Source: an uncultured Bacteroidia bacterium (GTDB lineage Bacteria; Bacteroidota; Bacteroidia; Bacteroidales; UBA932). From it: DNA of 64,000 nucleotides. A program made the position numbers and the translations under genes. The DNA lies in NCBI GenBank assembly GCA_902768665.1, contig CACXMA010000007.1, positions 46,110 to 110,109 on the forward strand, in the 5' to 3' direction. Under the pieces are notes generated by a model that saw nothing but the letters and a program-made list of their open reading frames with translations, made no database searches and was not told where the DNA came from. Of this stretch, positions 2,599 to 48,003 are shown in pieces (within the stretch, counting starts at the first letter, position 1; each line of letters begins with the position of its first letter).

Positions 2599-2625
2599 GT
2601 CATTCCCCGGCTTGTCCGGGGAATC
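2599..2625. repeat. Palindromic mini-element copy 1, intergenic
   Basis: GTCATTCCCCGG-CTTGT-CCGGGGAATC: a perfect 9-bp stem (ATTCCCCGG/CCGGGGAAT) around a 5-nt loop. An identical 27-mer occurs at 47977-48003. It fills almost the whole gap between the RND gene and folD. Confidence 0.9.
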
Positions 2626-2633
2626 TTTTTTTT
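2602..2633 (+). terminator. Terminator formed by palindromic element 1
   Basis: The 9-bp G+C-rich stem of the element is followed directly by nine T residues (2625-2633), giving a standard intrinsic terminator for the plus-strand RND gene. The T-run overlaps the folD stop codon. On the minus strand only a short T-run follows, so termination of folD there would be weaker. Confidence 0.75.
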
Positions 2634-3483
2634 AGGCGAACCGCGCCAGGAAGCATTCCACCGTATTTTCCATCAGGCAGGCGATGGTCATGGGACCGAC
2701 GCCGCCGGGGACCGGCGTGATGGCGGCGGCCTTCTTCGACACGGAGTCGAAGTCGACGTCGCCGCAGAGCTTGCCCGTCTCGGGGTCGGTGTCCATGCCG
2801 ACGTCGATGACGACGGCGCCCTCGGAGACCATGTCGGCGGTGATCATCTTTGCCCGCCCGGCGGCCACGACGAGAATCTCGGCCTCACGGGTGACGGAAG
2901 GCATGTCTACGGTCCGGGTGTGGCAGAGGGTGACGGTGGCGTGGCGGTCCAGGAGCATCTTCGCGACCGGCAGGCCGACGATGTTGCTGCGGCCGACGAC
3001 GACGGCGCGCTTGCCCTTCGGATCCACACCGATGGCATCCAGCAGTTTGAGGATGCCGGCAGGGGTGCAGGGGCTCATGTGCGGGGTCTTCTGCCAGAGA
3101 CCGGCGACATTGTACGGGTGGAAACCGTCGACATCCTTCTCCCGGGCGATGGTCTCGATGACCTTGGCCTCGCGGATGTGCTTCGGGAGGGGGAGCTGGA
3201 CGAGGATGCCGTCCACGCTGTCGTCGGCGTTGAGGCCTCGGATGAGCTCCAGGAGGGCCTCCTCGCTGATGCTCTCGTCCTGGACGAGGGTCGTATTGCG
3301 GATGCCCACGGCGTCGCAGGCCCGGGCCTTGTTGCGGACGTAGACGACGCTTGCGGGGTCTTCGCCCACGCGGACGACCACCAGGTGCGGCACCCTGCCG
3401 TATTTTTCCGGGAAGGAAGCGACCTTCTCCGCCAGCGCGGCCTTGAGGTCGGCCGCTATCTTCTTTCCGTCGATCAGTATCAT
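2632..3483 (-). CDS. folD: Methylenetetrahydrofolate dehydrogenase/cyclohydrolase FolD
   Basis: A 283-residue cytoplasmic protein of normal length for FolD, which converts 5,10-methylene-THF to 10-formyl-THF through NADP-dependent oxidation and hydrolysis. The catalytic pair is visible as Tyr48 and Lys52 in VYVRNKARAC. The loop DGILVQLPLPKHI carries the conserved Gln. VVGRSNIVGLPVAKML is the nucleotide-binding signature and PVPGGVGPMTIACLMENT the C-terminal FolD signature. It is a single-gene unit, convergent with the RND gene and divergent from cysS. Its 5' flank holds two palindromic elements instead of ordinary spacer. Confidence 0.98.
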   Translation of the reverse strand: MILIDGKKIAADLKAALAEKVASFPEKYGRVPHLVVVRVGEDPASVVYVRNKARACDAVGIRNTTLVQDESISEEALLELIRGLNADDSVDGILVQLPLPKHIREAKVIETIAREKDVDGFHPYNVAGLWQKTPHMSPCTPAGILKLLDAIGVDPKGKRAVVVGRSNIVGLPVAKMLLDRHATVTLCHTRTVDMPSVTREAEILVVAAGRAKMITADMVSEGAVVIDVGMDTDPETGKLCGDVDFDSVSKKAAAITPVPGGVGPMTIACLMENTVECFLARFA

Positions 3484-3498
3484 ATCTTTCGGTATTAA

Positions 3499-3523
3499 GA
3501 TGCCCGATCAAGTCGGGCATGAC
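3499..3523. repeat. Palindromic mini-element copy 2, intergenic, reverse orientation
   Basis: On the minus strand it reads GTCATGCCCGA-CTTGA-TCGGGCATC, that is GTCAT + stem + CTTGA loop + stem + ATC, as in the other copies. The stem ATGCCCGA/TCGGGCAT is perfect (8 bp). It lies in the folD-cysS divergent gap. Confidence 0.8.
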
Positions 3524-3529
3524 GCTATT

Positions 3530-3554
3530 GTCATTTCGAGCTTGTCGAGAAATC
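3530..3554. repeat. Palindromic mini-element copy 3, intergenic
   Basis: GTCATTTCGAG-CTTGT-CGAGAAATC. The arms pair as ATTTC/GAAAT and then through a GA/GA internal mismatch. It is a relative of the copy at 37284-37309, which has loop CGCAG instead. It sits 6 bp from copy 2, forming a tandem pair upstream of cysS. Confidence 0.75.
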
Positions 3555-3596
3555 TCTACAAAATTAGCAAAAATTGCATAGAATCGAAATAATTCC

Positions 3597-3604
3597 TAAC
3601 TTGC
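3597..3604 (+). promoter_or_regulatory. Probable -7 box TAACTTGC for cysS
   Basis: TAACTTGC is a one-base-shorter variant of TAnnTTTGC, 14 nt before the cysS ATG. The same variant is used before dxs (52259). Confidence 0.45.
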
Positions 3605-3618
3605 GCATCCTTTAAAAG

Positions 3619-5142
3619 ATGACTATGAGACCGCTTTATCTGACCAATACCCTTACCCGCACCAAGGAGCTTTTCAAACCGATCCACGAAGGCCATGTCG
3701 GCATGTACGTCTGCGGCCCGACGGTTTACGGCGACGCCCACCTCGGCCATGCCCGCCCGGGCGTGACCTACGACGTGCTGTTCCGCCTGCTGAAGCACCT
3801 TGGCTACAAGGTCCGCTATGTCCGTAACATCACGGACGTCGGCCACCTCGAGCACGACGCCGACGAAGGGGAGGACAAGATTGCGAAGAAGGCCCGGCTG
3901 GAGGAGCTGGAGCCCATGGAAGTAGTGCAGTTCTATACCGAACGCTACCACGAGGCGATGCGCCTGCTCAATACTGAGTCCCCGTCCATCGAGCCGCGCG
4001 CCTCGGGCCATATCATCGAGCAGATTGAGGTCATCAAGAAGATTCTCGATGCCGGTCTTGCGTATGAATCCAACGGCTCCATCTATTTCGATGTCGCCAA
4101 GTACAACCGCCTCCACCGCTACGGCATACTTTCGGGCCGCAGCCTCGATGCGACGCTCGAAGGGACCCGCGTGCTCGACGGTCAGAGCGACAAACGCGCT
4201 CCCTACGATTTTGCGCTCTGGAAAAAAGCCGAGCCGCAGCACATCATGCGCTGGCCGTCTCCCTGGGGCGACGGTTTCCCGGGCTGGCACCTCGAGTGCT
4301 CGGTGATGGGCGCGAAATATCTCGGCGAGGAGTTCGACATCCACGGCGGCGGCATGGACCTCATGTTCCCGCACCACGAATGCGAGATCGCGCAGAATGT
4401 GGCTTCCCGCGGCACGCAGGGCGTCCATTACTGGGTCCACAACAACATGATCACCATCGACGGCCAGAAGATGGGCAAGTCCTACGGCAACTTCATCACC
4501 CTGCCGCAGCTTTTTGCGGGGGACCACCCGAAGCTTGCGCAGGCCTACAGCCCGATGACGGTCCGTTTCTTCATCCTCCAGGCCCACTACCGCGGCACGC
4601 TCGATTTCTCCAACGAAGCCCTGCAGGGCGCGGAGAAAGGCTACAGGCGCTTGATGCAGGCCTGGCGGGAACTGGACCCCACGAACAAGTCGTGGGGTGA
4701 CGATGGTTCATTCAGCGGCAGTGCCCCGTCATTCCACGGCTTGTCCGTGGAATCTCCTTCCCCGGCTGTCGCGTCCATCATCGAAGCCGTCGAGGAGGCC
4801 CTCTGCGACGATCTCAACACGCCGATCGCCATCGCCCATCTGTTCGACGCTGTGAAGCTCATCCATGCCGGCGGCCTGTCCGAGGCTGACAGGAGCGCCC
4901 TGAAGCAGCTCTTCGACGATGTGGTCGGCGGTGTCCTCGGCCTGCTGGACGAGGAAGCGGTCGGCGGCTCCGGCAAGGCCGAGAAGGCCCTGGAGGGCGT
5001 CATGGAGCTGGTTCTCGAGGACCGCAGGAAGGCCCGCGCCGAAAAGAACTGGGCCGAGAGCGACCGCATCCGCGATCTGCTCGCTTCCTTCGGCATCACG
5101 GTCAAGGACACCAAGGAAGGTGCAACCTGGACGCTGGAATAG
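3619..5142 (+). CDS. cysS: Cysteinyl-tRNA synthetase with an in-frame palindromic insertion
   Basis: A 507-residue class I aminoacyl-tRNA synthetase that charges tRNA-Cys. The HIGH motif is HLGH near residue 41 after the zinc/Cys-binding [17 protein letters not shown] near residue 284 is the KMSKS loop. WHLECSVM and the [14 protein letters not shown] stretch hold the other zinc ligands. In the linker before the anticodon-binding helical domain (about residues 358-384) there is a low-complexity stretch, [20 protein letters not shown]. Its core [10 protein letters not shown] is encoded by a 27-bp palindromic element (4728-4754) also found in batDE. The protein should tolerate it, since both conserved domains are intact. 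An alternative start is the ATG at 3625. The gene ends before a strong terminator. Confidence 0.98.
4728..4754. repeat. Palindromic mini-element copy 4, inside cysS
   Basis: GTCATTCCACGG-CTTGT-CCGTGGAATC, a perfect 9-bp stem with a 5-nt loop. It is 27 bp long, so it keeps frame, and is read as [10 protein letters not shown] (residues about 370-379 of CysRS). It is identical base for base to the copy at 33215-33241 and is in the same reading phase there. Confidence 0.9.
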
Positions 5143-5160
5143 AGCCGAAACAGCGACAAT

Positions 5161-5194
5161 AAAAACGCATGGGTCTTCCCCATGCGTTTTTTTT
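5161..5194 (+). terminator. Intrinsic terminator after cysS
   Basis: ACGCATGGG/CCCATGCGT stem with a short TCTTC loop, an A-run before and eight T residues after. The symmetric A and T runs make it bidirectional, so it also serves the convergent zinc-ribbon gene. Confidence 0.9.
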
Positions 5195-5206
5195 GTGTGG
5201 CTTCTG

Positions 5207-6259: not shown

Positions 6260-6298
6260 ATCAGTAGGTTTAGTGTGATTTCGAGTAGCCGTTTGGGA

Positions 6299-6306
6299 CA
6301 AAGATA
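6299..6306 (-). promoter_or_regulatory. -7 box TATCTTTG for the zinc-ribbon gene
   Basis: Read on the minus strand, CAAAGATA at 6299-6306 gives TATCTTTG, 39 nt from the ATG at 6259. Confidence 0.6.
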
Positions 6307-6336: not shown

Positions 6337-6340
6337 CAAC

Positions 6341-19478: not shown

Positions 19479-20723
19479 ATGAGCACTGCAACTGCAAAGA
19501 AAACCAATATTTATCCCTGGGTAGTTGTCGGCCTTCTTTCTGTCGTCGCCTTCCTCAACTATCTCGACCGCCAGATGCTTGCGACCATGCAGGTCGCCAT
19601 CGGTGCGGACATCGCCGAGCTCCAACTTTCGCAGAACTTCGGCCGCCTGATGGCCATTTTCCTCTGGATCTACGCCGTCGTGAGTCCCTTTGCCGGCTCG
19701 GTGGCGGACCGTCTCAGCCGCAAGTGGCTCATCGTCGGCTCCCTCGGCGTCTGGTCCACGGTGACCCTGCTGATGGGTCTTTGCACGAGCTTTACGCAGA
19801 TGTACGTTCTCCGCGGCCTGATGGGCATCAGCGAGGCGCTTTATATCCCCTCCAGCCTCTCGCTCATCGCGGATTACCACGAAGGGAAGAACCGGTCGCT
19901 CGCCATCGGCCTCCACATGACCGGCCTCTATCTCGGCCAGGCGGTGGGCGGTTTCGGCGCCATCTTCTCCAGCGCCCTCTCCTGGCGCTGGACCTTCTCC
20001 GGCTTCGGCATCATCGGCATCCTCTATGCCTTCGTGCTGATGGTCTTCCTGAAGGAAAAAAGAGATTCCTCTGACGGGGCGGTATCGTCATCCCACGGCT
20101 CGTCCGTGGGATCCAAAGCGTCGCTCCTCAAATCCTTCGGCCTCATCTTCTCGAACATCGCCTTCTGGGCCATCCTCTTCTTCTTCGCCTCGACGTCCCT
20201 TCCGGGCTGGGCAACGAAAAACTGGCTCCCGACGCTGTTCGCCGGCACCCTCTCCAACCCGCTGTGGGCCGGTCCGGTCGCCACGATTACCATCGCCCTG
20301 TCGTCTTTTATCGGCGTGATGCTGGGCGGTCCGCTCTCTGACCGCTGGGTCCGGAAAAACCTCAAGGGACGCATCTACACGAGCGCCATCGGCCTCGGTC
20401 TCATGATCCCGGCACTGGTGCTGATGGGCCTCGGCCACGGTCTTGTCGCGGCCGTCGCCTCCGGCCTCATCTTCGGCCTCGGCTACGGCATGTTCGACAC
20501 CAACAATATGCCCATCCTCTGCCAGTTCGTCCCGTCCCGCCTGCGTGCGACCGCTTATGGTTTCATGAACATGGTCGGCGTAGCGATGGGCGCCCTGGTG
20601 ACGACGCTCCTCGGCCGCGTGGGCAATCTCGGCGTCGCCTTCGCCATCCTCGGCGGCGTGACCTTCCTCGCCCTTGCCGTCCAGCTCCTGGTCCTCCATC
20701 CGACGACGGACAATATGGAATAA
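19479..20723 (+). CDS. MFS transporter with an in-frame palindromic insertion
   Basis: 414 residues with 12 predicted membrane helices. NYLDRQMLATMQ in helix 1 and the loop 2-3 motif GSVADRLSRKWLIVGS place it in the major facilitator superfamily, near the anion:cation symporter type. The cytoplasmic loop between helices 6 and 7 contains SSHGSSVGS, coded by a 27-bp palindromic element (20087-20113) in the same phase as in cysS. Substrate unknown; the next gene is a Dcu-type transporter. Sialic acid is possible given nanA 3 kb away, but the genes are on opposite strands and nothing in the sequence supports it directly. Confidence 0.88.
   Translation: MSTATAKKTNIYPWVVVGLLSVVAFLNYLDRQMLATMQVAIGADIAELQLSQNFGRLMAIFLWIYAVVSPFAGSVADRLSRKWLIVGSLGVWSTVTLLMGLCTSFTQMYVLRGLMGISEALYIPSSLSLIADYHEGKNRSLAIGLHMTGLYLGQAVGGFGAIFSSALSWRWTFSGFGIIGILYAFVLMVFLKEKRDSSDGAVSSSHGSSVGSKASLLKSFGLIFSNIAFWAILFFFASTSLPGWATKNWLPTLFAGTLSNPLWAGPVATITIALSSFIGVMLGGPLSDRWVRKNLKGRIYTSAIGLGLMIPALVLMGLGHGLVAAVASGLIFGLGYGMFDTNNMPILCQFVPSRLRATAYGFMNMVGVAMGALVTTLLGRVGNLGVAFAILGGVTFLALAVQLLVLHPTTDNME
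20087..20113. repeat. Palindromic mini-element copy 5, inside the MFS gene
   Basis: GTCATCCCACGG-CTCGT-CCGTGGGATC, a perfect 9-bp stem (ATCCCACGG/CCGTGGGAT) with a 5-nt loop; 27 bp, frame-neutral. It differs from copies 4 and 6 by a compensated stem pair and one loop base, and is read in the same phase (TCA TCC CAC GGC ...). Confidence 0.88.
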
Positions 20724-30413: not shown

Positions 30414-31240
30414 GAAAGATTGTGAATATCATATTGGTGGCCAGCGTATTGGCGCTTGCCTCGTGCTCGCGGGATCCTTTTGTGAGGACCATGCGGGAAG
30501 GTGCAAGGGCCTACGATGAAGGTGACTATACCCGTGCCGCCGGCCTGTTCAAGGAGACACTGGAGGATACGACCTTCGCCGGCCTCTACAATTACGCGCT
30601 GGCAAGCCACGAGGCCGAGGATGACATCGAGGCCATCCGCGCGCTGGATACGCTCCGCAAGCAGGAGCTGGTGCCCGAGGACTATGCCGTCCCGGCGGTG
30701 CTGAACCTGGCGAACGCCTGCCTGACCGAGGCCGTCCGCGAGGAAGCGAAGGAAAACAGCCAGGAGCAGCCTGCGGCTCCGGAGCAGGGGGCGGTGCAGC
30801 AGGGTCAGAAAGCCTCCACGGGCCTTTATCAGCAGGCCATGCAGGCCTATGAGGAGTATCTGCTGGAGGTGCCGGAGGATATGGACGCCAAGGAGCGCTA
30901 CCTCTTCTGCAAGAGCAAGATGCCGCCGCAGGACGGCGGCGGTGGCGGCGGAAGCGACCAGAATCAGGACCAGCAGGATCAGCAGGACCAGGATCAGAAC
31001 CAGGATCAGCAGAACCAAGACCAGAATCAGGACCAGAATCAGGATCAGGATCAGAACGATCAGCAGGATCAAAACCAGGATCAGCAGCAGCAACAGCAAC
31101 AGCCGCAGGATCAGGACCGGCTGAACGAAGAGCAGATCTACAAGATGCTGGAAGCCAAGGAGAAAGAGACCCGCGACAAGCTCGATGAGAAAAAGGCCCG
31201 GGCCATCCAGCTGCGGCAAAAGGACAGGAAAAAATGGTAA
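30410..31240 (+). CDS. batC: BatC, TPR lipoprotein with Asp/Gln/Asn-rich linker
   Basis: 276 residues. The lipobox is LASCSRD. TPR-like helices cover about residues 25-75 (GARAYDEGDYTRAAGLFKE) and 140-175. Then comes a run of about 53 residues (about 182-235) made of D, Q and N only, with DQNQDQQ-type units, encoded by 12-15-bp imperfect DNA repeats (30955-31113). A final charged coiled helix (YKMLEAKEKETRDKLDEKK) closes the protein. BatC with a low-complexity linker is known in Bacteroides. The repeat region is prone to length change by slippage. Confidence 0.9.
   Translation: MRKIVNIILVASVLALASCSRDPFVRTMREGARAYDEGDYTRAAGLFKETLEDTTFAGLYNYALASHEAEDDIEAIRALDTLRKQELVPEDYAVPAVLNLANACLTEAVREEAKENSQEQPAAPEQGAVQQGQKASTGLYQQAMQAYEEYLLEVPEDMDAKERYLFCKSKMPPQDGGGGGGSDQNQDQQDQQDQDQNQDQQNQDQNQDQNQDQDQNDQQDQNQDQQQQQQQPQDQDRLNEEQIYKMLEAKEKETRDKLDEKKARAIQLRQKDRKKW
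30955..31113 (+). repeat. Coding minisatellite (CAGGAT/CAGAAC units) in batC
   Basis: Imperfect repeats of CAGGATCAG and CAGAACCAG, ending in a run of CAG/CAA codons. It stays in frame and encodes the D/Q/N linker. Confidence 0.85.
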
Positions 31241-31241
31241 G

Positions 31242-33944
31242 ATGATGAAAGCAAGCACGATATTTCAGCGGATGGCGGCCGCCCTGGCCCTCCTTCTTCT
31301 GACGGCGGGCGCCTCGCTGGCGCAGAACCGCATCAAGGTGGAGGTGCGCCCGGACGCCCTGGTGAGCCTGGACGAGAACTTCCAGGTCACCTTTACGATC
31401 GAGGGAGCCAGCCTTGTGCGGGACTTCCAGTGGGAGCCCGGTGACGATTTCCATCTCGTCTGGGGGCCGGCGCGTTCGTCCAGCACCTCGACGACCATCG
31501 TGAACGGCCGGCGCGAGATGACCTCCCGCCAGTCCTATACCTATACGCTGAAGCCGCTGCGGGTCGGTACTTTCCCGGTTGCGCAGGCCAGCGCCAATGT
31601 CGACGGCAACACCATCCTGTCGGAACTCGCCAGCGTGACCGTCATCGCAGGGGAGGACGGCAGCACGGAGGCGGCAGCAGCGGCTCCATCTTCATCTTCA
31701 TCCTCATCCTCTTCCGGTGCCGCCGCGGTGGCCTCCAGGGGCGAGGACATCTTCATCCGCATGGTCCCGTCCAAGCGCCGCGTCATCGTCGGCGAGCCTT
31801 TCCGCTTCGAAATCAAGCTCTATACGAAACTCGATGTCAGCGGCCTGACGAGCGCCAAGTTCCCGTCCTTCGACAACTTCTCCAAGCGGGATGACGACAT
31901 CGGCGAGATCCAGTTCCACCGCGAGGATGTCGGCGGGACCATCTACTATGTCGCCACGGTCGCGAGCTACACGCTGACCCCGCTGAAGGCCGGCACCATC
32001 CCCATCGAGGCGGCCGAACTCGGCTGTACCTACATGGTCCGCAACGCCCCGACCGGCGATCCGCTGGAGGACTTCTTCGGGACGGGCAGCCGCCAGATGC
32101 GCCGGACCCTGCGCGCTCCGGGCGTCGACATCGAGGTCTCGCGTCTTCCCGGGGGCGCTCCGGCTTCCTTTACCGGCGCCGTGGGCAGCTATAAGATGGA
32201 GGCGTCGCTCTCCTCGGACCATATCCGCGAGAACGAGGCCGGCAGCCTGCATGTCCGCATCAGCGGCACCGGCAACATCGCCATGGTGACGGCCCCGGAC
32301 GTGCCGCTGCCGCAGGGCTTCGACACCTACGGGACCGAGTCGAAATTCGATTCCCGCGGCTCCGTCTCCGGCACACAAAGCTTTGATTATCCCTTCATTC
32401 CCCGCACCGACGGAAGCTTCCGGGTCGGGCCGGTGGAATTCAGCTACTTCGACACCGATTCCCGCAGTTACAAGACGCTCAGGGCCGGTCCGTTTACGCT
32501 GACGGTGGACCGTGACTCGACGGGCGTTGCCGCTGTGGCAAGCGTTCCGGGCGCTCCCCGCATCGGCGGTACCCGCGTCGAGGCCAAGGCCGAAAGCATC
32601 CGCTATATCCGCACCCGCGTGCCCTCCGACCTCGGCCGGACACGCAGTTTCTGGGTCGCCAGGCCGCTCTACTGGGCCGTTCTGGGCGCGCTGCTGCTGG
32701 CCCTGCTGATCTATCTGCCGGCTTCCGCGGCCATTTACCGCCGCCGGGCCGACCTCTCCGGGACCAAGAACCGCCGGGCCGCCAAGCTCGCCTCATCCCG
32801 GCTCAAGACCGCCCGCGTCTACCTCAAGAAGAATCTCCATACGGCCTTCTACGAGGAGCTCCACCGGGCCATGCTCGGCTATGCCTCCGACAAACTGCTG
32901 CTCGACGTGACGCAGCTGAGCCGCGACGGAATGCGCGCGGCGCTGCTCGATGGCGGTGCCCGGCCCGAGGCCGTGGACGGCTTCCTCGCCCAGCTCGATG
33001 CCTGTGAATATGCCCGTTACGCGCCGGGCGGCGACACTTCCGTTTCCATGCGGGAGCAGTACGAAGCCACCGTCCGCGCCCTGTCCGATATCGACGCTAC
33101 CGTGAAAAAACCCGTGAAATCCTCCGGCCGGACGGCCCTGACCGCCGTCCTGCTCCTCCTGACCCTCCCGACGGGCCTGCAGGCCCAATCCCTGTCAATG
33201 CCCGGCCCGGATCCGTCATTCCACGGCTTGTCCGTGGAATCTGTCCGCGATTCCCTCTGGAGCGCCGGCGTCGAGGCCTATGCCGACGGCCGTTATGCCG
33301 ACGCCGCCCGCGACTGGACAGCCCTTGCGGCCGATTCGCCCGAGAGTGCGGACCTATGGTACAATATCGGCAATGCATCCTACCAGATCGGTGATTATGC
33401 CCATGCCGTGCTCGGTTATGAGCGCGCCCTGCGGCTGGATCCCTCCTTCGACGACGCCCGTTACAACCTCGAGCGCGTGGCCGAGCACCTCGACAAGATC
33501 GACGCCGTGCCGGAGTCACCGCTCCGCCGCGCCGCCCGGTCGGTGAGTTACTGGCTCCCGGCGAATGTCTGGGCCCTTCTTGCCGCCGTCTTCTTTGCCG
33601 GCGCGATGGTTCTCGCCCTGGCCTTTTTCCGCAGCGGCCGCCGCGGCTGGCGCATCGCCGGGTTCTACGGCGGAATCGCCGCCCTGCTGCTGTTTGCCGG
33701 GTCCCTCTGGATGAGCGTGCGGCAGTACCGCGAGTACCAGGCGAAGGATCAGCGCTACGGTGTCGTCATGCTTTCGCGAACGAGCGTCCGCAATGCTCCT
33801 TCCGGCAGCGGCAGCATCGAACTCTTTGAGCTCCACGCCGGTACGAAGGTCGAAATGCTTGATGCGATGAACGGCTGGACGGAAGTGCGCATCGCCGACG
33901 GCAACCGCGGCTGGCTCCGCACGGCGGACATCGAGGAGATTTAG
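31242..33944 (+). CDS. batD/batE: BatD-BatE fusion protein with internal signal-like segment
   Basis: 900 residues in one open frame from the ATG pair at 31242. Part 1 is BatD: signal peptide (MAAALALLLLTAGASLAQ), beta-sandwich BatD domains with a poly-Ser linker near residue 150, a membrane helix near residues 480-500 (WAVLGALLLALLIYLP) and a helical cytoplasmic tail to about residue 618. Part 2, from the in-frame GTG at 33102 (residue 621), reads KKPVKSSGRTALTAVLLLLT then LPTGLQAQ, a typical signal peptide, then BatE: TPR helices (LWYNIGNASYQIGDYAHAV), two membrane helices and a C-terminal SH3-like domain (MLSRTSVRNAPSGSGS). In Bacteroides BatD and BatE are usually two proteins. A palindromic element (33215-33241) sits just after the internal signal and codes [10 protein letters not shown]. 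Either the genes are fused or BatE is started internally at the GTG. Confidence 0.9.
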   Translation: MMKASTIFQRMAAALALLLLTAGASLAQNRIKVEVRPDALVSLDENFQVTFTIEGASLVRDFQWEPGDDFHLVWGPARSSSTSTTIVNGRREMTSRQSYTYTLKPLRVGTFPVAQASANVDGNTILSELASVTVIAGEDGSTEAAAAAPSSSSSSSSSGAAAVASRGEDIFIRMVPSKRRVIVGEPFRFEIKLYTKLDVSGLTSAKFPSFDNFSKRDDDIGEIQFHREDVGGTIYYVATVASYTLTPLKAGTIPIEAAELGCTYMVRNAPTGDPLEDFFGTGSRQMRRTLRAPGVDIEVSRLPGGAPASFTGAVGSYKMEASLSSDHIRENEAGSLHVRISGTGNIAMVTAPDVPLPQGFDTYGTESKFDSRGSVSGTQSFDYPFIPRTDGSFRVGPVEFSYFDTDSRSYKTLRAGPFTLTVDRDSTGVAAVASVPGAPRIGGTRVEAKAESIRYIRTRVPSDLGRTRSFWVARPLYWAVLGALLLALLIYLPASAAIYRRRADLSGTKNRRAAKLASSRLKTARVYLKKNLHTAFYEELHRAMLGYASDKLLLDVTQLSRDGMRAALLDGGARPEAVDGFLAQLDACEYARYAPGGDTSVSMREQYEATVRALSDIDATVKKPVKSSGRTALTAVLLLLTLPTGLQAQSLSMPGPDPSFHGLSVESVRDSLWSAGVEAYADGRYADAARDWTALAADSPESADLWYNIGNASYQIGDYAHAVLGYERALRLDPSFDDARYNLERVAEHLDKIDAVPESPLRRAARSVSYWLPANVWALLAAVFFAGAMVLALAFFRSGRRGWRIAGFYGGIAALLLFAGSLWMSVRQYREYQAKDQRYGVVMLSRTSVRNAPSGSGSIELFELHAGTKVEMLDAMNGWTEVRIADGNRGWLRTADIEEI
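33215..33241. repeat. Palindromic mini-element copy 6, inside batDE
   Basis: GTCATTCCACGG-CTTGT-CCGTGGAATC, identical to the copy in cysS (4728-4754) and in the same phase, coding [10 protein letters not shown] (about residues 657-667). It lies between the internal BatE signal peptide and the TPR part. Confidence 0.92.
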
Positions 33945-36051: not shown

Positions 36052-37281
36052 ATGGAAAACAACAAGAAAGGCGGCTTCAAGAGCCGCGAAGGCCGTAGTG
36101 AGTACGGCAGCAACAGAACAGGCGGTCCCCGCAAAAGCACAACCAGCGGCCGCAACCACTTTACCACCCGTCGTCCCGCCGGTGCTACCCGTAGCGCCGA
36201 GCGTGTCAATTTCAGCGACGCAGACCTCGAGAACCGCAGCTTCGGCAGCTTCTCCGAGCATGAAGGCGGCCGTGGTCCCCGCAAAAGCTACGGCGACCGC
36301 AAACCTGCTTTCGGCGACCGCAAGCCCGCTTTCGGCGAGCGTAAGAGCTCCTATGGCGAGCACAAGAGTTCCTATGGCGACCGCAAGCCGGCATTCGGCG
36401 AGCGCAAGTCCCGCAGCTACGGCGACAAGCCCGCGGCGTACGGCACCCGCAAGCCCTATTCCAAATTCCCGAAGAAAGAAGACGGCATTTCCCGCATGAT
36501 CGGCCGCAAGGCCGCCGCGGCGTCCGAGCTTTCCGATAACGATTATGTAGCCGCCCCCATCAAGGACGTCGTCCGCCTCAACAAGTTCATCGCCAACTCC
36601 GGCGTATGTTCCCGCCGCGAGGCCGATGAGCTGATCCAGGCCGGTGTCGTCACCGTCAACGGCGAGGTCGTCACCGAGCTGGGCGTCAAGGTCAACATCC
36701 AGACCGACGACATCCGCTTCAACGGCGAGCGTCTCAAGGGTGAGGCCAAGACCTACATCCTCATGAACAAGCCGAAAGGCTACGTCACCACCGCCGGCGA
36801 CCCCCACGCCGAGAAGACCGTCATGAGCCTGATCAAGGGCGTTCCCGTGCGCGTCTTCCCCGTCGGCCGCCTCGACAAGAACACGACCGGCGTGCTGATG
36901 TTCACCAACGACGGCGAGATGGCCGAGAAACTGACCCACCCTTCCTTCAACAAGAAGAAAATCTACCAGGTCATCCTCGACAGCCCGCTGAAGGAAGAGG
37001 ACCGCGAGCAGATCCTTTCCGGCATCGAGCTGAGCGACGGCATGATCAACGCCGACGAGCTCGAGTATGTCGACGCCGTCGACCGCAAGAAACTCGGCAT
37101 CGAGATCCATTCCGGCAAGAACCGCATCGTCCGCCGCATCTTCGAGTCGCTGGGCTATGAGGTCCGTGCGCTCGACCGCGTCTATTTCGCCGGCCTTACG
37201 AAGAAGGGCCTCAAGAAGGGCGAGTGGCGCTATCTGACCGAGGGTGAGGTCAACATCCTCCGCATGGGCGCCTACGTTTAA
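36052..37281 (+). CDS. rluB: RluB/RsuA-family rRNA pseudouridine synthase
   Basis: 409 residues. The first 165 or so are a basic, disordered extension with tandem motifs such as FGDRKPAFGERKSSYGEHKS (about residues 77-125). Then an S4 RNA-binding domain (VRLNKFIANSGVCSRREADE) and the RsuA/RluB catalytic domain: LMNKPKGYVTT, VFPVGRLDKNTTGVLMFTND (with the catalytic Asp in GRLDKNT) and IHSGKNRIVRRIFESLGYEV. It makes pseudouridine in 23S or 16S rRNA; which one cannot be told. The RGG-like basic N-terminus is common in Bacteroidetes members and likely binds RNA. Confidence 0.92.
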   Translation: MENNKKGGFKSREGRSEYGSNRTGGPRKSTTSGRNHFTTRRPAGATRSAERVNFSDADLENRSFGSFSEHEGGRGPRKSYGDRKPAFGDRKPAFGERKSSYGEHKSSYGDRKPAFGERKSRSYGDKPAAYGTRKPYSKFPKKEDGISRMIGRKAAAASELSDNDYVAAPIKDVVRLNKFIANSGVCSRREADELIQAGVVTVNGEVVTELGVKVNIQTDDIRFNGERLKGEAKTYILMNKPKGYVTTAGDPHAEKTVMSLIKGVPVRVFPVGRLDKNTTGVLMFTNDGEMAEKLTHPSFNKKKIYQVILDSPLKEEDREQILSGIELSDGMINADELEYVDAVDRKKLGIEIHSGKNRIVRRIFESLGYEVRALDRVYFAGLTKKGLKKGEWRYLTEGEVNILRMGAYV

Positions 37282-37283: not shown

Positions 37284-37309
37284 GTCATTTCGAGCGCAGT
37301 CGAGAAATC
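37284..37309. repeat. Palindromic mini-element copy 7, between rluB and era
   Basis: GTCATTTCGAG-CGCAG-TCGAGAAATC. It starts 2 bp after the rluB stop and ends 1 bp before the era ATG, so it is nearly the entire intergenic region. A sister of copy 3. Confidence 0.85.
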
Positions 37310-37310: not shown

Positions 37311-38192
37311 ATGGCACACAGAGCAGGCTTTGTCAATATCATCGGCAACCCGAACGTCGGGAAATCGACGCTGATGAACGCCCTTGTGGGCGAGAAACTT
37401 TCGATCGTGACGGCGAAGGCCCAGACGACGCGCCACCGCATCATGGGCATCGTCAGCGGCGAGGACTATCAGATCGTCTATTCCGACACCCCCGGCATCC
37501 TGAAGCCGAATTACCGGCTCCAGCAGAACATGATGAACTTCGTGGACGCCGCCATCGGCGACGCGGACATCATCCTCTATGTGACCGATACGGTCGAGAA
37601 AGGGGACAAGAACGCCGATTACATCGCCAAACTCCGGACGGTCGACTGCCCGGTCGTGGTGTGCCTCAACAAGATCGACATTTCCTCGCAGGAAAAGGTC
37701 GTCGAGCTGATGCAGTGGTGGAAGGAGCAGCTTCCCGGGGCCGAGATCATCCCGGTCTCCGCGAAGGAGAATTTCAATCTCCAGAGCGTGCTGGAGGCCG
37801 TTTCCTCCCGCCTTCCCGAGGCACCGGCCTGGTTCGACAAGGACCAGTTCACGGACCGCAACCTCCGCTTCTTCGCCTCGGAAATCCTCCGGGAGAAGAT
37901 CCTCGAGAACTACTCCGAGGAGATTCCCTACAGCTGCCAGGTCGAGATTGAGCAGTTCAAGGAAGGGGAGGAGCGCTACGACATCAGCGCCGTCATCTAC
38001 GTGATGCGCGACAGCCAGAAGGGCATCATCATCGGCAAGCGCGGTGAGATGCTCAAGAAAGTCGGGACCGAGGCCCGGCTGGAGATGGAGGATTTCTTCC
38101 AGAAGAAGGTCTTCCTCTCCACATTTGTGAAGGTGGACCCGGACTGGCGCACGAGCCGTCGGGAGCTCCGCCGGTTCGGATATGAAGAATAA
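37311..38192 (+). CDS. era: GTPase Era
   Basis: 293 residues. GTPase domain with G1 GNPNVGKST near residue 13, G3 DTPG near 61, G4 NKID near 120 and G5 VSAKE near 149. The C-terminal KH domain has IIIGKRGEMLKKVG near residue 240. Era binds the 3' end of 16S rRNA and helps assemble the 30S subunit. The start ATG follows directly after a palindromic element that replaces any leader from rluB. The gene end overlaps the first possible parC start by 11 bp. Confidence 0.97.
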   Translation: MAHRAGFVNIIGNPNVGKSTLMNALVGEKLSIVTAKAQTTRHRIMGIVSGEDYQIVYSDTPGILKPNYRLQQNMMNFVDAAIGDADIILYVTDTVEKGDKNADYIAKLRTVDCPVVVCLNKIDISSQEKVVELMQWWKEQLPGAEIIPVSAKENFNLQSVLEAVSSRLPEAPAWFDKDQFTDRNLRFFASEILREKILENYSEEIPYSCQVEIEQFKEGEERYDISAVIYVMRDSQKGIIIGKRGEMLKKVGTEARLEMEDFFQKKVFLSTFVKVDPDWRTSRRELRRFGYEE

Positions 38193-38208
38193 AAAGGAGA
38201 ACAGAGAT

Positions 38209-40971
38209 ATGAGTCAGGAGTGGGATAACATTCCCCAGGAAGAGGAAAACGAAGAAGGGATGCCCGTTGAGGAGGAGATGCCCCTGGACGAGGGTGCGGC
38301 CGTCCCCAGCGGAAAGTTCGCCAAGCTGCTGAGCAGCGACAGCCGGAAGTACAAGCTCTCCGGCATGTTCAAGGACTGGTTCCTGGATTACTCTTCCTAC
38401 GTCATCCTCTACCGTGCGGTGCCGCACATCGTGGACGGCCTCAAGCCGGTCCAGCGCCGCGTGCTGCACGCCATGTACAAGATGGACGACGGCAACTACA
38501 CCAAGGTCGCGAACATCGTCGGCCAGGCGATGCAGTACCACCCCCACGGCGACGCCTCCATCCTCGGCGCCCTCGTCACCATCGGCCAGAAGGGCCTCCT
38601 GGTGGACTGCCAGGGTAACTGGGGTAACATCCTGACCGGCGACTCCAACGCCGCCCCGCGTTACATCGAGGCCCGCCTGTCGAAATTCGCCAAGGAAGTG
38701 GTCTTCGACCCGAAGGTCACCAGCTGGATGACCTCCTACGACGGCCGCAACCAGGAGCCGACCGAGCTCCCGGTGCGTTTCCCGCTCCTGCTCGCGCAGG
38801 GCACGGAAGGCATCGCCGTCGGTATGGCTTCCAAGATTCTCCCGCACAACTTCAACGAGCTTCTCGACGCCTCCATCGCCATCCTGCGGGAGCAGCCCTA
38901 CGAGCTCTATCCCGACTTCCCGACCGGCGGCTACGCCGACTGCAGCAAGTACAACGCCGGCAAGCGCGGCGGCATCGTCAAGGTCCGCGCCAAGATCGAG
39001 AAGGTCGACAAGAACACGATCAACATCACGGAAATCCCTTACGGAAAGACCTCCCACATGCTGATCGACTCCATCCTGAAGGCCCGCGAAAAGGGCAAGA
39101 TCAAGATCAAGAAGATCGAGGACATGACCACGGAGAAGGTCGAGATCGTGATCCACCTCCCCAACGACGTATCCCCGGACAAGACCATCGACGCCCTCTA
39201 CGCCTTCACGGACTGCGAGACCACCATCGCCCCGAACGCCTGCGTCATCAAGGACGGCAAGCCGCAGTTCCTCTCCGTGAACGACATCCTCGAGTACGAC
39301 ACCTACCACACCCGCGACATCCTGCGCCGCGAGCTCGAAATCAAGCTCGGCGAGTTGGAGGACGAGTGGCACTGGGATTCGCTCGAGCGCATCTTCTTCG
39401 AGAACCGCATCTACAAGGTCCTCGAGCAGAACCAGCGCACCTGGGAGCAGCAGCTCGACGACATCTTCTCGCAGATGAAGCAGTACGAGGACCTGCTGCA
39501 CCGCCCGATCACGATGGACGACATCAACCGCCTCGTGGAGAAGCCGGTCCGCAAGATCTCCAAGTTCGACACCAAGGCCCTCGACGAGAAGATTTACGCC
39601 ATCGAGGCCCAGATGAAGACCATCCGGGACCAGCTGGACCACATCACCGACTACACCGTCGAGTGGTTCAAGGCCCTGAAGAAGAAATACGGCAAGGAAT
39701 TCCCGCGCCAGACCGAAATCACCTCCCTCGAGACCATCGCCGCGACAAAGGTGGTCAACAACAACGCCAAGCTCTACGCCAACATGGAGGAGGGCTTTGT
39801 CGGCATCGGCCTGAAGGCATCCGACGGCGGCGTGCTCATCGGCGAATGCTCCGACCTCTCCGAGATCATCGTCATCGGCAAGAACGGCAAGTACCGCATC
39901 ACCAAGGTCAGCGACAAGGCCTTCTTCGGCCCGAACCTCCTGTATGTGGGCGTGTTCAACCGCGGCGACGAGCGGACCATCTACAACGTCATCTACCGCG
40001 ACGGCAAGAGCCCGGTCTACTACGCCAAGCGCTTCGCCATCACCTCCGTGACCCGCGACAAGGAGTACGACATCACGACCGGCACGCCCGGCTCCGCCAT
40101 CCTCTGGTTCACCGTCAACCACAACGGCGAGGCCGAGACCGTCCGCATCTACCTCCGCCCGAAGCCGAAGCTCAAGAAGACGCAGCTCGAGTACGATTTC
40201 TCGACCCTCGCCATCAAGGGCAAGACGACCCGCGGCAACCTCGTGTCGAAGAATTCCATCCAGAAGATCGTCATGAAGTCCAAGGGCATCTCCACCATCG
40301 GCGGCAAGGACATCTGGTACGACCCGGACATCCAGCGCCTCAACGAGGACGGCCGCGGCGAACACCTCGGCCAGTTCAGCGGCGACGACAAGGTCCTTGC
40401 GGTCTTCAAGGACGGTACCTACTACACGACGAGCTACGACGTGGTCAACAAATACCAGGGCGACGTCCTCCTCATCGAGAAGCTCGACACGGACAAGACC
40501 TTCACGGCCCTCTACTGGGATGCCGGTGTCAAGGCCTTCTATGTCAAGCGTTTCAGCTTTACCGAGAGCGACAATACGCCCGTTCTCTTCATCGCCGAGG
40601 GACGCGGCTCCCGCCTTGTCGGCCTGTCGGAGGATGTCTATCCCCGCTTCGAGGTGGTCTTCGGCGGCAAGTACGCCCACCGCGAGCCCGAGGTCATCGA
40701 GGCCGAGCCGTTCATCGCCAAGAAGGGCCTCTCCGCCAAGGGCAAGAAGTGCCACGCCTACGACCTCAAGGACGTGCGCTTCGTCGAGCCTGACGTCGAC
40801 ATTCCCGACACTGTCATTCCGAGCGAAGCGAAGGAATCTCCCGACGAGGAACCCATCGACATCCTCTCCGTCCCCGCGGCCCCGCAGGGCGGCGAAGCGG
40901 CGCAGATGCTCCAGGATGCCCCTAAGGACACCCCTTCCGACGAAGAGCCCACTGAGTGGACGCTGTTCTAA
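38209..40971 (+). CDS. parC: DNA topoisomerase IV subunit A (ParC)
   Basis: 920 residues from the ATG at 38209, which has AAGGAG nine bases upstream; an in-frame ATG at 38182 would add nine residues and overlap era. Type IIA topoisomerase A subunit: GLKPVQRRVLHAMYKM near residue 75, the quinolone-region block YHPHGDASILG, and the active-site Tyr at about 152 in RYIEARL. The C-terminal part has the beta-pinwheel strands expected for ParC. The acidic tail (about 865-920) contains VIPSEAKES, coded by a palindromic element (40813-40839). GyrA remains possible, but no GyrA-box is seen. The end overlaps the convergent Sel1 gene by 4 bp. Confidence 0.93.
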   Translation: MSQEWDNIPQEEENEEGMPVEEEMPLDEGAAVPSGKFAKLLSSDSRKYKLSGMFKDWFLDYSSYVILYRAVPHIVDGLKPVQRRVLHAMYKMDDGNYTKVANIVGQAMQYHPHGDASILGALVTIGQKGLLVDCQGNWGNILTGDSNAAPRYIEARLSKFAKEVVFDPKVTSWMTSYDGRNQEPTELPVRFPLLLAQGTEGIAVGMASKILPHNFNELLDASIAILREQPYELYPDFPTGGYADCSKYNAGKRGGIVKVRAKIEKVDKNTINITEIPYGKTSHMLIDSILKAREKGKIKIKKIEDMTTEKVEIVIHLPNDVSPDKTIDALYAFTDCETTIAPNACVIKDGKPQFLSVNDILEYDTYHTRDILRRELEIKLGELEDEWHWDSLERIFFENRIYKVLEQNQRTWEQQLDDIFSQMKQYEDLLHRPITMDDINRLVEKPVRKISKFDTKALDEKIYAIEAQMKTIRDQLDHITDYTVEWFKALKKKYGKEFPRQTEITSLETIAATKVVNNNAKLYANMEEGFVGIGLKASDGGVLIGECSDLSEIIVIGKNGKYRITKVSDKAFFGPNLLYVGVFNRGDERTIYNVIYRDGKSPVYYAKRFAITSVTRDKEYDITTGTPGSAILWFTVNHNGEAETVRIYLRPKPKLKKTQLEYDFSTLAIKGKTTRGNLVSKNSIQKIVMKSKGISTIGGKDIWYDPDIQRLNEDGRGEHLGQFSGDDKVLAVFKDGTYYTTSYDVVNKYQGDVLLIEKLDTDKTFTALYWDAGVKAFYVKRFSFTESDNTPVLFIAEGRGSRLVGLSEDVYPRFEVVFGGKYAHREPEVIEAEPFIAKKGLSAKGKKCHAYDLKDVRFVEPDVDIPDTVIPSEAKESPDEEPIDILSVPAAPQGGEAAQMLQDAPKDTPSDEEPTEWTLF
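40813..40839. repeat. Palindromic mini-element copy 8, inside parC
   Basis: GTCATTCCGAGCGAAGCGAA-GGAATCT. The ends (GTCATTCC/GGAATC) match the family while the centre (GAGCGAAGCGAA) is a distinct sub-type. It is read as VIPSEAKES, a different phase from copies 4-6, in the disordered C-terminal tail. Confidence 0.75.
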
Positions 40972-45156: not shown

Positions 45157-45160
45157 GGAT

Positions 45161-45276: not shown

Positions 45277-45277
45277 G

Positions 45278-45835
45278 TTAAGTAGTTTGCTTGTTTTGCT
45301 TCTCTTTCTTGTTGATGGAGTAGAGGCTGACGGCGGCGCCGCTTACCAGCATCGTTGACAGGGCTATGAAAATCCAGACCTTTGATTTATACTTTGCCTC
45401 GCATTTCGCGGTTAAGTATAGGTCGCTATCTCCGTCATGGAAGTATATCTTCTCTGAATATATACCCATCATTTCGTCCGTCGTGGTGACGTTCGAACCA
45501 ATATCATGATAGGTGTGCCAAACGCTGGTATAATAGATTCCCGTTGCCAGTAACGAATAAATCATGACTGTACCTCCCAGGAGGATCAGTACTTTCAGAA
45601 AATTCTTAATGCCTTTCTTGGAAGAAGTGACGGATGCTGTCGCCGAGGCAGATTGTGGCTGCTGCTGCGGTGCTGGTGCAGTGGCTCCGATGGGGCTGCC
45701 GCAAACGTTGCAGAAACGGGAGCCTTCGGGATTGACGTGGCCGTTGGGGCAGACGCTGGGTTGCGGAATCGGAGCTCCGCAGATGTTGCAGAAACGGGAT
45801 CCGTCCGCAACTTCGTGACCATTAGGACATTTCAT
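45278..45835 (-). CDS. Double zinc-ribbon membrane protein
   Basis: 185 residues from the ATG at 45835 (MKCPNGHEVADGSRFC). Two zinc ribbons in a row: CPNGHEVADGSRFCNICG and CPNGHVNPEGSRFCNVCG, each with paired Cys. A Gln/Ala/Ser linker follows, then a membrane helix (FLKVLILLGGTVMIYSLLA), a loop of about 60 residues (IYFHDGDSDLYLTAKCEAKY) and a second helix (VWIFIALSTMLVSGAAVSLY). Function unknown. It has the same kind of ribbon as the protein at 5207-6259, there at the C-terminus. An upstream in-frame ATG (45871) is possible. A TATCTTTA lies at 45853-45860 as a weak -7 box. Confidence 0.75.
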   Translation of the reverse strand: MKCPNGHEVADGSRFCNICGAPIPQPSVCPNGHVNPEGSRFCNVCGSPIGATAPAPQQQPQSASATASVTSSKKGIKNFLKVLILLGGTVMIYSLLATGIYYTSVWHTYHDIGSNVTTTDEMMGIYSEKIYFHDGDSDLYLTAKCEAKYKSKVWIFIALSTMLVSGAAVSLYSINKKEKQNKQTT

Positions 45836-45890
45836 GGCAGAATATTTTTTTGTAAAGATAGGCATTTGCATTGATATCGCAAAAAGTATG

Positions 45891-45898
45891 TATCTTTG
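45891..45898 (+). promoter_or_regulatory. -7 box TATCTTTG for aroK
   Basis: TATCTTTG, 18 nt before the ATG at 45917. Confidence 0.6.
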
Positions 45899-45916
45899 TG
45901 TCTAACGGAAAAACAG

Positions 45917-46408
45917 ATGATACTCGCGCTGACAGGAATGATGGGAAGCGGCAAGACGACGGTCGGCCGCCTGGTAGCGGATGCCTTCGGGTGTCCGTTT
46001 CTTGATTTGGATGAACTCATCGCCCGGAAGGCGGGGAAGGGGATTCCCGAGATCTTTGCCACCGAAGGGGAAGCGGCGTTCCGCCTGCTGGAGGGGAAGG
46101 TGCTGAAGGAGACCGTGAAGAAATATGCGCAGACGACGGCTGTGCTGGCCCTCGGCGGCGGTACGGTAACCGTCCCCGGTGCCGTGAAGCTGCTGCAGGA
46201 GCAGACGACCTGTGTCTGGCTGCAAGTCTCTGAGGCTGAGGCGCTGGCACGTCTGTCGGGTGCCAAGGACCGTCCGCTGGCCGGAGACTGGGCCGCCTTG
46301 CTGGAAGCGCGAGCATCGCTCTATGCCGCCGCGGCCCACGTCACCCTCGACACGGACGGCGCCGCACCGGAAGCCCTCGCCGACGAAATCATTATTTCCG
46401 TCCTCTGA
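45917..46408 (+). CDS. aroK: Shikimate kinase
   Basis: 163 residues from the ATG at 45917 (MILALTGMMGSGKTTVGRL); upstream in-frame TTG lies in the promoter. P-loop GMMGSGKTT near residue 7, shikimate-binding FLDLDELIARKAGKGIPEIF with the conserved Asp, and ALGGGTVTVPG near residue 83. The lid segment is KDRPLAG. It phosphorylates shikimate in the route to chorismate; aroE lies 2.5 kb further on. A fragment of a second copy lies inverted at 45161-45276. Confidence 0.95.
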   Translation: MILALTGMMGSGKTTVGRLVADAFGCPFLDLDELIARKAGKGIPEIFATEGEAAFRLLEGKVLKETVKKYAQTTAVLALGGGTVTVPGAVKLLQEQTTCVWLQVSEAEALARLSGAKDRPLAGDWAALLEARASLYAAAAHVTLDTDGAAPEALADEIIISVL

Positions 46409-46417
46409 TTTTTTTCG

Positions 46418-46425
46418 TATCTTTG
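46418..46425 (+). promoter_or_regulatory. -7 box TATCTTTG for lysS
   Basis: TATCTTTG, 26 nt before the lysS ATG, just after the aroK stop and a seven-base T-run. Confidence 0.6.
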
Positions 46426-46451
46426 CACGCTTTTAAGAAGAATAACGATAT

Positions 46452-47969
46452 ATGGCAAACGTCAATGAACTGAACGAGCAGGAGCTCGGTAGAAGAGAAT
46501 CGCTGAACAAGCTGCGCGAACTGGGCATCAATCCCTATCCGGCACCGCTGTATCCGGTCAATACCGATACGGCCGAGATCGCCGCGGGCTTCGACCCGGA
46601 GAAGGGCAATTTCGCGGATGTGTGCATCGCCGGCCGCATCATGAGCCGCCGCATCATGGGCGCCGCCTCCTTCATGGAGCTGCAGGACGCCAAGGGCCGC
46701 ATCCAGGTCTACGTCAAGCGCGACGAGATCTGCCCCGACGAGGACAAGACGATGTACAACACCGTCTTCAAGAAACTCCTCGACATCGGCGACATCATCG
46801 GTATCAAGGGCTTTGCCTTCATCACCCAGACGGGCCAGCTGTCGGTCCACGCCAAGGAACTGACCGTCCTCAGCAAGTCCCTCCGCGTGCTCCCGATCGT
46901 CAAGACCGACGCCGACGGCACCGTCCACGACAGCTTCGAGGACCCGGAGCTCCGCTACCGCCAGCGCTATGTCGACCTCATCGTCAACCCGCAGGTCAAG
47001 GAGACCTTCATCAAGCGCGCGAAGATCATCGCCACGATGCGCGAATACTTCAACGCCGCCGGCTGCCTCGAGGTTGAGACTCCGATCCTCCAGCCCATCC
47101 CGGGCGGCGCGACGGCCCGTCCGTTCATCACGCACCACAACGCCCTCGATGTCGACATGTACATGCGTATCGCCAACGAACTCTACCTCAAGCGCCTGAT
47201 TGTGGGCGGCTACGACGGGGTCTACGAGTTCGCCAAGAACTTCCGCAACGAGGGCATGGACCGCACCCACAACCCCGAATTTACCTGCGTCGAGCTCTAT
47301 GCCGCCTACAAGGACTACTTCTGGATGATGGATTTCACCGAGAAGATGCTCGAGAAGGTGGCCGAGGCGACCGGCGGCCTCGTGAAGACCATCGGCGGCA
47401 ACGAGATCTCCTTCAAGGGCCCCTACCGCCGTCTGCCGATCCTCGAGGCCATCAAGGAATACGCCGGCGTGGATGTCAAGGGCATGGGCGAGGACGAGCT
47501 GCGCGAGACCTGCAAGAAGCTGAACGTCGAGGTCGACAAGACCATGGGCGTCGGCAAGCTCATCGACGCCATCTTCGGCGAATACTGCGAGAAGAACCTC
47601 ATCCAGCCGACCTTCATCATCGACTATCCCGTCGAGATGTCCCCGCTGACCAAGCGCTGCCGCTACGACGACACGCTGACCGAGCGTTTCGAGCTCTTCG
47701 TCAACGGCAAGGAGCTGGCGAACGCCTATTCCGAGCTGAACGACCCGATCGACCAGCTGGCGCGTTTCGAGGAGCAGGCCGCCCTCAAGTCGAAGGGCGA
47801 CGACGAGGCGATGTACATCGACTACGACTTCGTCCGCGCCCTCGAGTACGGCATGCCGCCGACCTCCGGCATCGGCATCGGCATCGACCGCCTCACCATG
47901 TTCATGACCGGTCAGGAGACCATCCAGGATGTGCTCTTCTTCCCGACCATGCGTCCCGAGAAATTCTGA
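46452..47969 (+). CDS. lysS: Lysyl-tRNA synthetase, class II
   Basis: 505 residues. N-terminal OB-fold anticodon-binding domain (about 60-170; [20 protein letters not shown]), then the class II core. Motif 1 is near [16 protein letters not shown], motif 2 is [19 protein letters not shown] near residue 260, and motif 3 is [18 protein letters not shown] near residue 470. The length matches bacterial LysRS. It is followed by a palindromic element and then the SpoU methyltransferase gene. Confidence 0.97.
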
Positions 47970-47976
47970 TCCAAAC

Positions 47977-48003
47977 GTCATTCCCCGGCTTGTCCGGGGA
48001 ATC
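47977..48003. repeat. Palindromic mini-element copy 9, between lysS and the SpoU gene
   Basis: GTCATTCCCCGG-CTTGT-CCGGGGAATC, identical to copy 1 at 2599-2625. No T-run follows, so termination is unlikely here. It ends 4 bp before the next start codon. Confidence 0.92.

Follow-up and report, generated by a model that had tools for sequence, protein, structure and literature searches.

What are the short palindromes that recur along a Bacteroidales contig, and did they reach their present sites by moving? The question was raised by a window of 64,000 nucleotides, the whole stretch of DNA analysed (G000:C7:46110-110109), from the 2.03 Mb genome of an uncultured Bacteroidia bacterium (26 contigs, 88% complete). 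Its closest CysS relatives, of up to 85% identity, are metagenome-assembled genomes of Bacteroidales or Bacteroidia, many of them labelled ruminant. The original prediction, made from the letters of the window, described nine palindromes as actively spreading repetitive extragenic palindromic (REP) elements of the kind moved by a REP-associated tyrosine transposase (RAYT). Taken as a whole, the evidence is best explained if the palindromes are mobile REPs with a CGTC tag, working like the coding palindromes RPE-4/6/7 of Rickettsia (Rickettsia palindromic elements, RPEs), a reading that we consider probable but well short of certain. The conclusions on spread and on in-frame residence rest on the comparison of genomes.

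Copy number and anatomy of the palindromes

All nine palindromes were recovered by sequence check where they had been reported, the first being identical to the ninth and the fourth to the sixth. The list was one short, a tenth, degenerate copy lying on the minus strand at 4675-4701. A strict scan of the window (GTCAT, a perfect stem with at least four further pairs, ATC) returned six palindromes against a mean of 0.26 and a maximum of 2 in 100 first-order Markov resamplings. Genome-wide, a covariance model built from 14 variants gave 125 matches at E ≤ 0.5 and 115 at E < 0.01, the latter being the set studied below. The main CCACGG form, GTCATTCCACGGCTTGTCCGTGGAATC, had 83 matches in the genome at ≤3 mismatches, including 43 exact ones; its reversed control had none. 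Compensated stem changes, from which a conserved fold had been predicted, were present in many of the 115 copies (for example TCCACGG/CCGTGGA, GCCACGG/CCGTGGC, CCCACGG/CCGTGGG and TCCATGG/CCATGGA). The copies at 3530, 37284 and 40813 are sister subtypes with imperfect stems and scored 12-17 bits with the main-type model (window E 0.13-1.3). The subtype GTCATTTCGAGC / GTCATTTCGAGCGNAGTCGAGAAATC had 43 further genome matches at ≤3 mismatches (control 0), a count that covers the 3530/37284 type, the 40813 subtype having no count of its own. An Rfam scan of the window at the gathering threshold returned tRNAs only.

The unit consists of a C-GTC tag, a 9-base left arm starting with AT, a 5-base loop (CTTGT and variants), a 9-base right arm and then C-T. 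GTC stood at the start of 113 of the 115 copies (GTCAT in 106, GTCAC in 7). The flanking bases were C at -1 in 95% (T in 4%), C or T at -2 in 87%, T at +1 in 86% and T at +3 in 63%. Ninety copies were 27 nt long, with a 9-bp stem and a 5-nt loop; 19 were 28-mers with a 6-nt loop, four were 25 nt and two 26 nt in length.

As judged from these features, the elements fit the known CGTC-tagged REP superfamily and not the GTAG/RAYT type. In the parts of PMC3733652 drawn on here, Di Nocera et al. (2013) define the CGTC REPs, count Bacteroidetes among their carriers and rickettsial RPE-4/6 among their members, describe intragenic copies without a dedicated transposase, and leave the manner of movement open. 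Like those REPs, the present elements have a tag, CGTC or TGTC, that stands unpaired at one terminus, a stem of 8-9 bp with AT as its first pairs, a loop of 4-5 nt (as in the 90 27-mers among 115 copies), paired stem variants, some copies inside genes (31/115) and no linked transposase gene, Y1 transposases being the type examined. Unlike them, they end in C and then T (86%), where most but not all published members have a CCA-type tail; that tail is a tendency and not a definition. They also differ in the order of neighbours, likewise a property and not a definition: head-to-head (HH) dimers with tags outside predominate in the published set, tail-to-tail (TT) dimers are rare, head-to-tail (HT) ones negligible and clusters rare, whereas here inverted pairs were tag-inside only, and direct neighbours and tag-side half-units were common. 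Set against the GTAG REPs moved by RAYTs, the tag is CGTC, and no RAYT gene was found with CGTC palindromes on both sides. The mark of the RPE type, entry in frame at tolerant positions of proteins that are unrelated to one another, holds as well, structure having been modelled for one protein.

Empty sites in relatives and residence inside protein genes

Spread, as had been predicted, is supported by empty sites in relatives, by the 43 identical copies and by the patchy presence among relatives. In the cation ATPase gene the insert was absent from all 26 aligned relatives, with a net insertion of 30 nt at 26 of 27 loci and of 27 nt at the remaining one. In the thiamin pyrophosphokinase gene the net insertion was 30 nt in six of seven genomes (12 of 14 loci, each genome occurring twice) and 33 nt in G086. 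Net values in the other host genes were larger, smaller or unreadable, cysS being notably unreadable by net length, because pairs, ladders or variable loops occur there. Target-site duplication was not definable around the insertions, since the loops that surround them vary.

G086, the closest relative met, was empty at DNA level at sites equivalent to C3:3926 (net 66), C3:4248 (41), C1:63510 (42), C1:64204 (33) and C20:8257 (75), with flank identities of 83-97%; the element at C3:3926 is a tag-to-tag pair. An ogt-like gene and the gap upstream of it were empty in G086 at 95-97% DNA identity. The comparison left aside C16:22629, C16:23769, C16:24916 and C9:69489 (untidy alignments) and C3:43646 (which matched the repeat itself), and its loci were picked partly for holding elements, so that the numbers of empty sites do not represent a rate. 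At some sites relatives hold a different palindrome, the positions being compared by eye. In rsmE and a gltD-like gene, G086 has another CGTC family at the same place; the cysS linker carries strict palindromes of other families in three of 80 relatives (L041, L045 and L057), and in L249 a different CGTC-type palindrome occupies the insertion site of the uxaA-like gene. In L229 and L235, the loop of that gene which in G000 takes up the CGTC element contains other, longer insertions with inverted repeats.

A 28-nt pattern of the 27-mer class matched 15 of the 121 genomes of the genus, including the genome studied. Matches in G075, G078 and G079 were not palindromes by eye and were dropped, leaving 12 genomes that are called element-bearing on the strength of this one pattern, genomes with other subtypes being counted as lacking. 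The CCACGG form was present in three other genomes of the genus (G040, G082 and G086) and, across the order, in one of 393 genomes, namely the one studied.

To place copies in genes, a classifier of codon usage was trained with 15 genes of the window and required >8 bits on both flanks in one open frame. It assigned 31 of the 115 copies to genes, found no coding signal on either side of 54 and placed 30 at edges or between genes. The 31 copies represent 26 distinct genes (27 translations, two being one ABC-F gene). By Pfam, the host proteins are RimM, an RsmE-type RNA methyltransferase, ABC-F, a family-4 glycosyltransferase, a HAD phosphatase, CysS, a BatD/TPR protein, a GltD-like oxidoreductase, a DNA alkylation repair protein, 4-alpha-glucanotransferase, a transglutaminase, MetRS (metS), a U32 peptidase, a TonB receptor, an amidohydrolase, GH92, a protein of methylguanine-DNA-methyltransferase type (ogt-like), a solute-binding protein, one of altronate-dehydratase type (uxaA-like), a cation ATPase, a major facilitator superfamily (MFS) protein, RsmF, SDH_alpha, thiamin pyrophosphokinase, DJ-1 and a formyltransferase in a frame continuing from LptF/LptG.

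The main form contains a stop in one of its six frames, which was used in no gene; the other five were used 18, 6, 3, 3 and 1 times, SFHGLSVES being the commonest (chi-square p=5e-6 for departure from equal use of these five). All seven half-units that lie in genes had a period that is a multiple of three, against 7 of 37 elsewhere. In-gene copies made up 31 of the 90 27-mers and none of the 25 copies of other lengths (Fisher p=2e-4). In an AlphaFold model of CysS with a mean predicted local distance difference test (pLDDT) score of 66, the inserts, residues 353-379, are predicted to lie in a coil, with pLDDT<50 at 356-376, between confident helices at 332-351 and 382-395. Local GC skew (~3 kb), oriented by element, was positive for 9 of 31 in-gene copies and 36 of 84 others, the in-gene lean being inseparable from gene orientation.

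One-sided neighbours and possible means of movement

A repeat of the 12-base left half (≤1 mismatch, same orientation, within 90 nt) was found on the tag side of 44 of the 115 copies and on the far side of five, all five being complete copies. Four of the 44 were complete, and periods were 18-30 nt in 19, 38-41 nt in 18 and 49-88 nt in three; incomplete half-units in this genome thus number 40 on the tag side and 0 on the far side. In a sample of 101 palindromes from 70 loci of relatives, a few of which may be chance palindromes, half-units within 60 nt lay on the tag side in 17 cases and on the far side in none, and repeats of the right half were absent from both sides. Inverted neighbours within 70 nt formed 24 distinct tag-to-tag pairs in this genome and 12 in relatives, with no tag-outside pair in either. 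Since 17 of the 24 join different stem families, the pairs are not simple fold-back copies. With all subtypes included, the stretches from this genome together with the window (0.36 Mb) held 23 tag-inside, 0 tag-outside and 36 direct neighbours; these stretches were chosen around main-type copies, and one overlapping stretch was omitted, hence 23 and not 24.

Some arrangements are recorded here in their own right. Eighteen loci carry a 67-nt intergenic composite repeat made up of a half-unit, a spacer like AGCGCCCGCGGCAATTGAACC and a full element (e.g. C13:17651-17717 and C9:133523-133589). In L306, just upstream of a CGTC element, an apparent chimera joins a CCACGG-type left half to a TTTCGAG-type right half, which suggests a template switch at the loop. 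On its tag side, the element of L321 has a ladder of 18-nt units, GTCATTCGCCGAATCCTC, each lacking the top of the hairpin. In the literature searched, the parts of PMC3733652 drawn on here included, neither half-units confined to the tag side nor exclusively tag-to-tag pairs were found described; the tag-to-tag order is the opposite of the dimer order published for CGTC REPs.

The tag may be the place where new DNA joins. A lone 27-mer would enter as about 30 extra bases; in a gene, a copy would survive where the loop that receives it is tolerant and the reading frame is kept, selection then favouring in-frame copies in such loops. Intergenic copies may also serve as terminators. The least certain steps are that a trans-acting single-strand activity might read tag and hairpin, and that new DNA would be joined just 5' of a resident element's tag, residents acting as landing pads; such joining would leave elements paired tag to tag and build up strings of half-units, each breaking off close to the loop. 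In its full form the proposal is that the CGTC tag is an address: a tag-reading single-strand enzyme joins palindromes, or a half copied up to the loop, 5' of any resident CGTC tag whatever its stem family, and residents, those in genes included, are the preferred landing pads. We hold this tentatively, as possible but somewhat short of an even chance. If true, it would account for the tag-to-tag pairs, the one-sided ladders and the different families at the same gene loop across species and, by analogy, for the ATGAC-rich extended RPE regions of Rickettsia.

No transposase gene was found among the window genes translated or scanned, as had been reported. The genome itself has two RAYT-like (Y1) genes, whose proteins scored 37 and 34 bits with NCBIfam REP_Tyr_transpos, below the cut-off of 80, and gave nothing in a Pfam scan at E ≤ 1e-4. 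One, on contig C5 (L113:8300-9650, about 20.3-21.6 kb of G000:C5), sits between palindromes of another kind, gtggctaccctcc...ggagggtagccac, which contain GTAG; they could form a distinct REP family served by this RAYT-like gene. Sequence similar to gtggctaccctcc...ggagggtagccac also adjoins a CGTC copy at C9:86707. The second gene starts at the end of a contig and is followed, 0.5 kb downstream, by CGTC elements within the next gene. Within the stretches examined around 47 Y1 loci (the two of this genome and 45 from relatives, some covering the same gene and one of our own lying at the contig end), none had CGTC copies on both sides of the gene, and nine had some palindrome-like match. The likeness to REPs in general stands, but the tag is CGTC and not GTAG, and the suggested movement by a RAYT is not supported.

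That a RAYT/TnpA-REP (Y1 HUH) enzyme of the genome nevertheless moves the elements in trans, as for GTAG REPs, is doubtful in our view. Published TnpA-REP enzymes do use a 5' tetranucleotide and a hairpin, as the parts of PMC8266576 drawn on here describe. Y1 genes are present in 89 of the 121 genomes of the genus. A homologue of the C5 protein was found at E ≤ 1e-30 in 69 genomes, comprising 10 of the 12 element-bearing ones against 59 of the 109 others. This is a weak association (p=0.067), and G051 (eight pattern matches) and G118 (two) lack a homologue at that threshold, an absence that is not firm, some genomes being incomplete. The 47 Y1 loci also speak against it, as do the GTAG-bearing palindromes that the C5 gene has for itself. 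An origin without any enzyme, in which replication slipping at hairpins produces the half-units, and selection or chance the tag-to-tag pairs, strikes us as unlikely to a similar degree. Template switching at palindromes is well known, the units stop at the loop or close to it, and at several loci they include some bases of the upstream flank, like tandem duplications; some bias could come, in the main family, from a TCCGT match that the loop/right-arm junction shares with the flank/tag. A nearly symmetrical hairpin should nevertheless slip both ways, whereas incomplete units stand at 40 against 0 here and at 17 against 0 among the 101 palindromes of relatives, which have various stems. Slippage also leaves unexplained the dispersal to new sites and the 36 tag-to-tag pairs beside no tag-outside pair.

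Two further explanations were considered. The elements could be old, vertically inherited and going extinct, the apparent empty sites being deletions. Two sites are indeed shared with G086; extinction has been suggested for CGTC families (in the parts of PMC3733652 drawn on here) and one old insertion favoured for RPE-4/6/7 (likewise PMC3767692). With 43 exact 27-nt copies, an ATPase insert that is absent at net 30 nt in 26 of 27 loci, and the ogt-like gene and its upstream gap empty in G086 at 95-97% DNA identity, we regard this as improbable. Equally improbable is that they are selected functional elements, such as terminators, mRNA hairpins or protein tags, and not mobile DNA: several window copies fill tight intergenic gaps, and the first is followed by a T run, but the host genes are unrelated, presence varies among relatives and five frames are used.

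Several observations weigh against the reading of the palindromes as mobile CGTC REPs that work like RPE-4/6/7. No mobilising enzyme was found in a search that covered Y1 genes, none of which has CGTC copies on both sides, and two of the 12 element-bearing genomes are without a RAYT-like match at E ≤ 1e-30. The sites C1:85076 and C16:2648 are common to this genome and G086, so not all copies are recent, and the different families at one site could stem from one old insertion that later diverged, the view favoured in the parts of PMC3767692 drawn on here. Among the tag-side units, the 18 of period 38-41 nt are probably one composite repeat that spread, and so are not independent, and two of the 40 incomplete units, both in the 18-30 nt group, are just 2-3 nt short of complete. 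The length test is weakened because 19 of the 25 non-27-mers are 28-mers, none of them in a gene and several in the intergenic composite repeat. Genes of relatives do contain 25- and 26-mers, which belong to other families: 15 of 41 lie in genes, as do 12 of 59 27-mers. A general rule that genes are entered by 27-mers only was rejected on the former count.

Window copies and kindred systems

Five of the ten window copies (4675, 4728, 20087, 33215 and 40813) lie inside genes, a point that the original prediction missed. The copy at 2599-2625 (plus strand, CCCCGG form, 46.8 bits) occupies the gap between convergent open reading frames (ORFs) 111-2594 (+) and 2632-3483 (-) and is followed by the T run. 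A 25-nt GCCCGA form at 3499-3523 (minus strand, 31.2 bits) has its tag towards the next element, a sister-subtype copy with an imperfect stem, GTCATTTCGAGC...GAGAAATC, at 3530-3554 (plus strand, 16.6 bits), the two standing tag-to-tag. Within cysS (ORF 3619-5142), the degenerate copy GTCACCCCACGACTTGTTCGTGGGGTC at 4675-4701 (38.4 bits) stands tag-to-tag with an exact main-type copy at 4728-4754 (plus strand), read SFHGLSVES. The CCCACGG form at 20087-20113 (plus strand) is read SSHGSSVGS within an MFS transporter gene (ORF 19479-20723), and a further exact main-type copy, at 33215-33241 (plus strand), is read SFHGLSVES within the BatD/TPR protein gene (ORF 31185-33944). The sister-subtype copy GTCATTTCGAGCGCAGTCGAGAAATC at 37284-37309 (plus strand; 12.3 bits with the main-type model and an exact match to the subtype pattern) fills the gap between ORFs 36052-37281 and 37311-38192. 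Another, GTCATTCCGAGCGAAGCGAAGGAATC at 40813-40839 (plus strand, 17 bits), lies in frame near the 3' end of the topoisomerase IV/gyrase A gene (ORF 38182-40971) and is read VIPSEAKES. The last copy, at 47977-48003 (plus strand, 46.8 bits), is a CCCCGG form identical to the first and lies between the end of ORF 46452-47969 and an ATG at 48008.

Other features of the window are a series of short repeats at 30956-31146 that encode D, Q and N, inside ORF 30410-31240 or at its end; seven repeat copies, mostly 21 bp apart (GDRKPAF-like), at 36267-36474 in the N-terminal part of ORF 36052-37281; and a 900-codon open frame at 38053-40755, antisense to the topoisomerase/gyrase A gene and probably a shadow of its codon usage.

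Miniature inverted-repeat transposable elements (MITEs) resemble the present elements in being small non-autonomous repeats; unlike in MITEs, no target duplication was definable here, the parent transposon having been sought among Y1 genes only. The GTAG REPs that are moved, or possibly moved, by RAYT/TnpA-REP enzymes are likewise short tagged hairpins in many copies with the tag 5' of the hairpin, as described in the parts of PMC8266576 and PMC6006769 drawn on here, but differ in tag sequence and in that no RAYT-like gene was found here between element copies. The systems that work most alike are RPE-4/6/7 of Rickettsia, as they appear in the parts of the Rickettsia japonica paper (PMC3767692) drawn on here. 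ATGAC, the complement of GTCAT, recurs in their extended regions; the host proteins are unrelated, the insertions lie in solvent-exposed areas, and different RPE groups occur at nearly the same position in orthologues, for which one old common insertion was favoured and hotspots were the alternative. The present elements differ in having a Bacteroidales host and relatives with empty sites, where rickettsial orthologues have an insert at the same locus, and their one-sided rule was not met in that description. If the Rickettsia elements likewise gain half-units on the tag side, their extra ATGAC motifs would follow.

A genus of many species, 43 identical copies in one genome, empty sites and a one-sided rule together form a signature that any mobiliser must explain. 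On the sequence comparisons made here, palindrome insertion would have supplied core enzymes with new peptide segments repeatedly in Bacteroidales, and not in Rickettsia alone.

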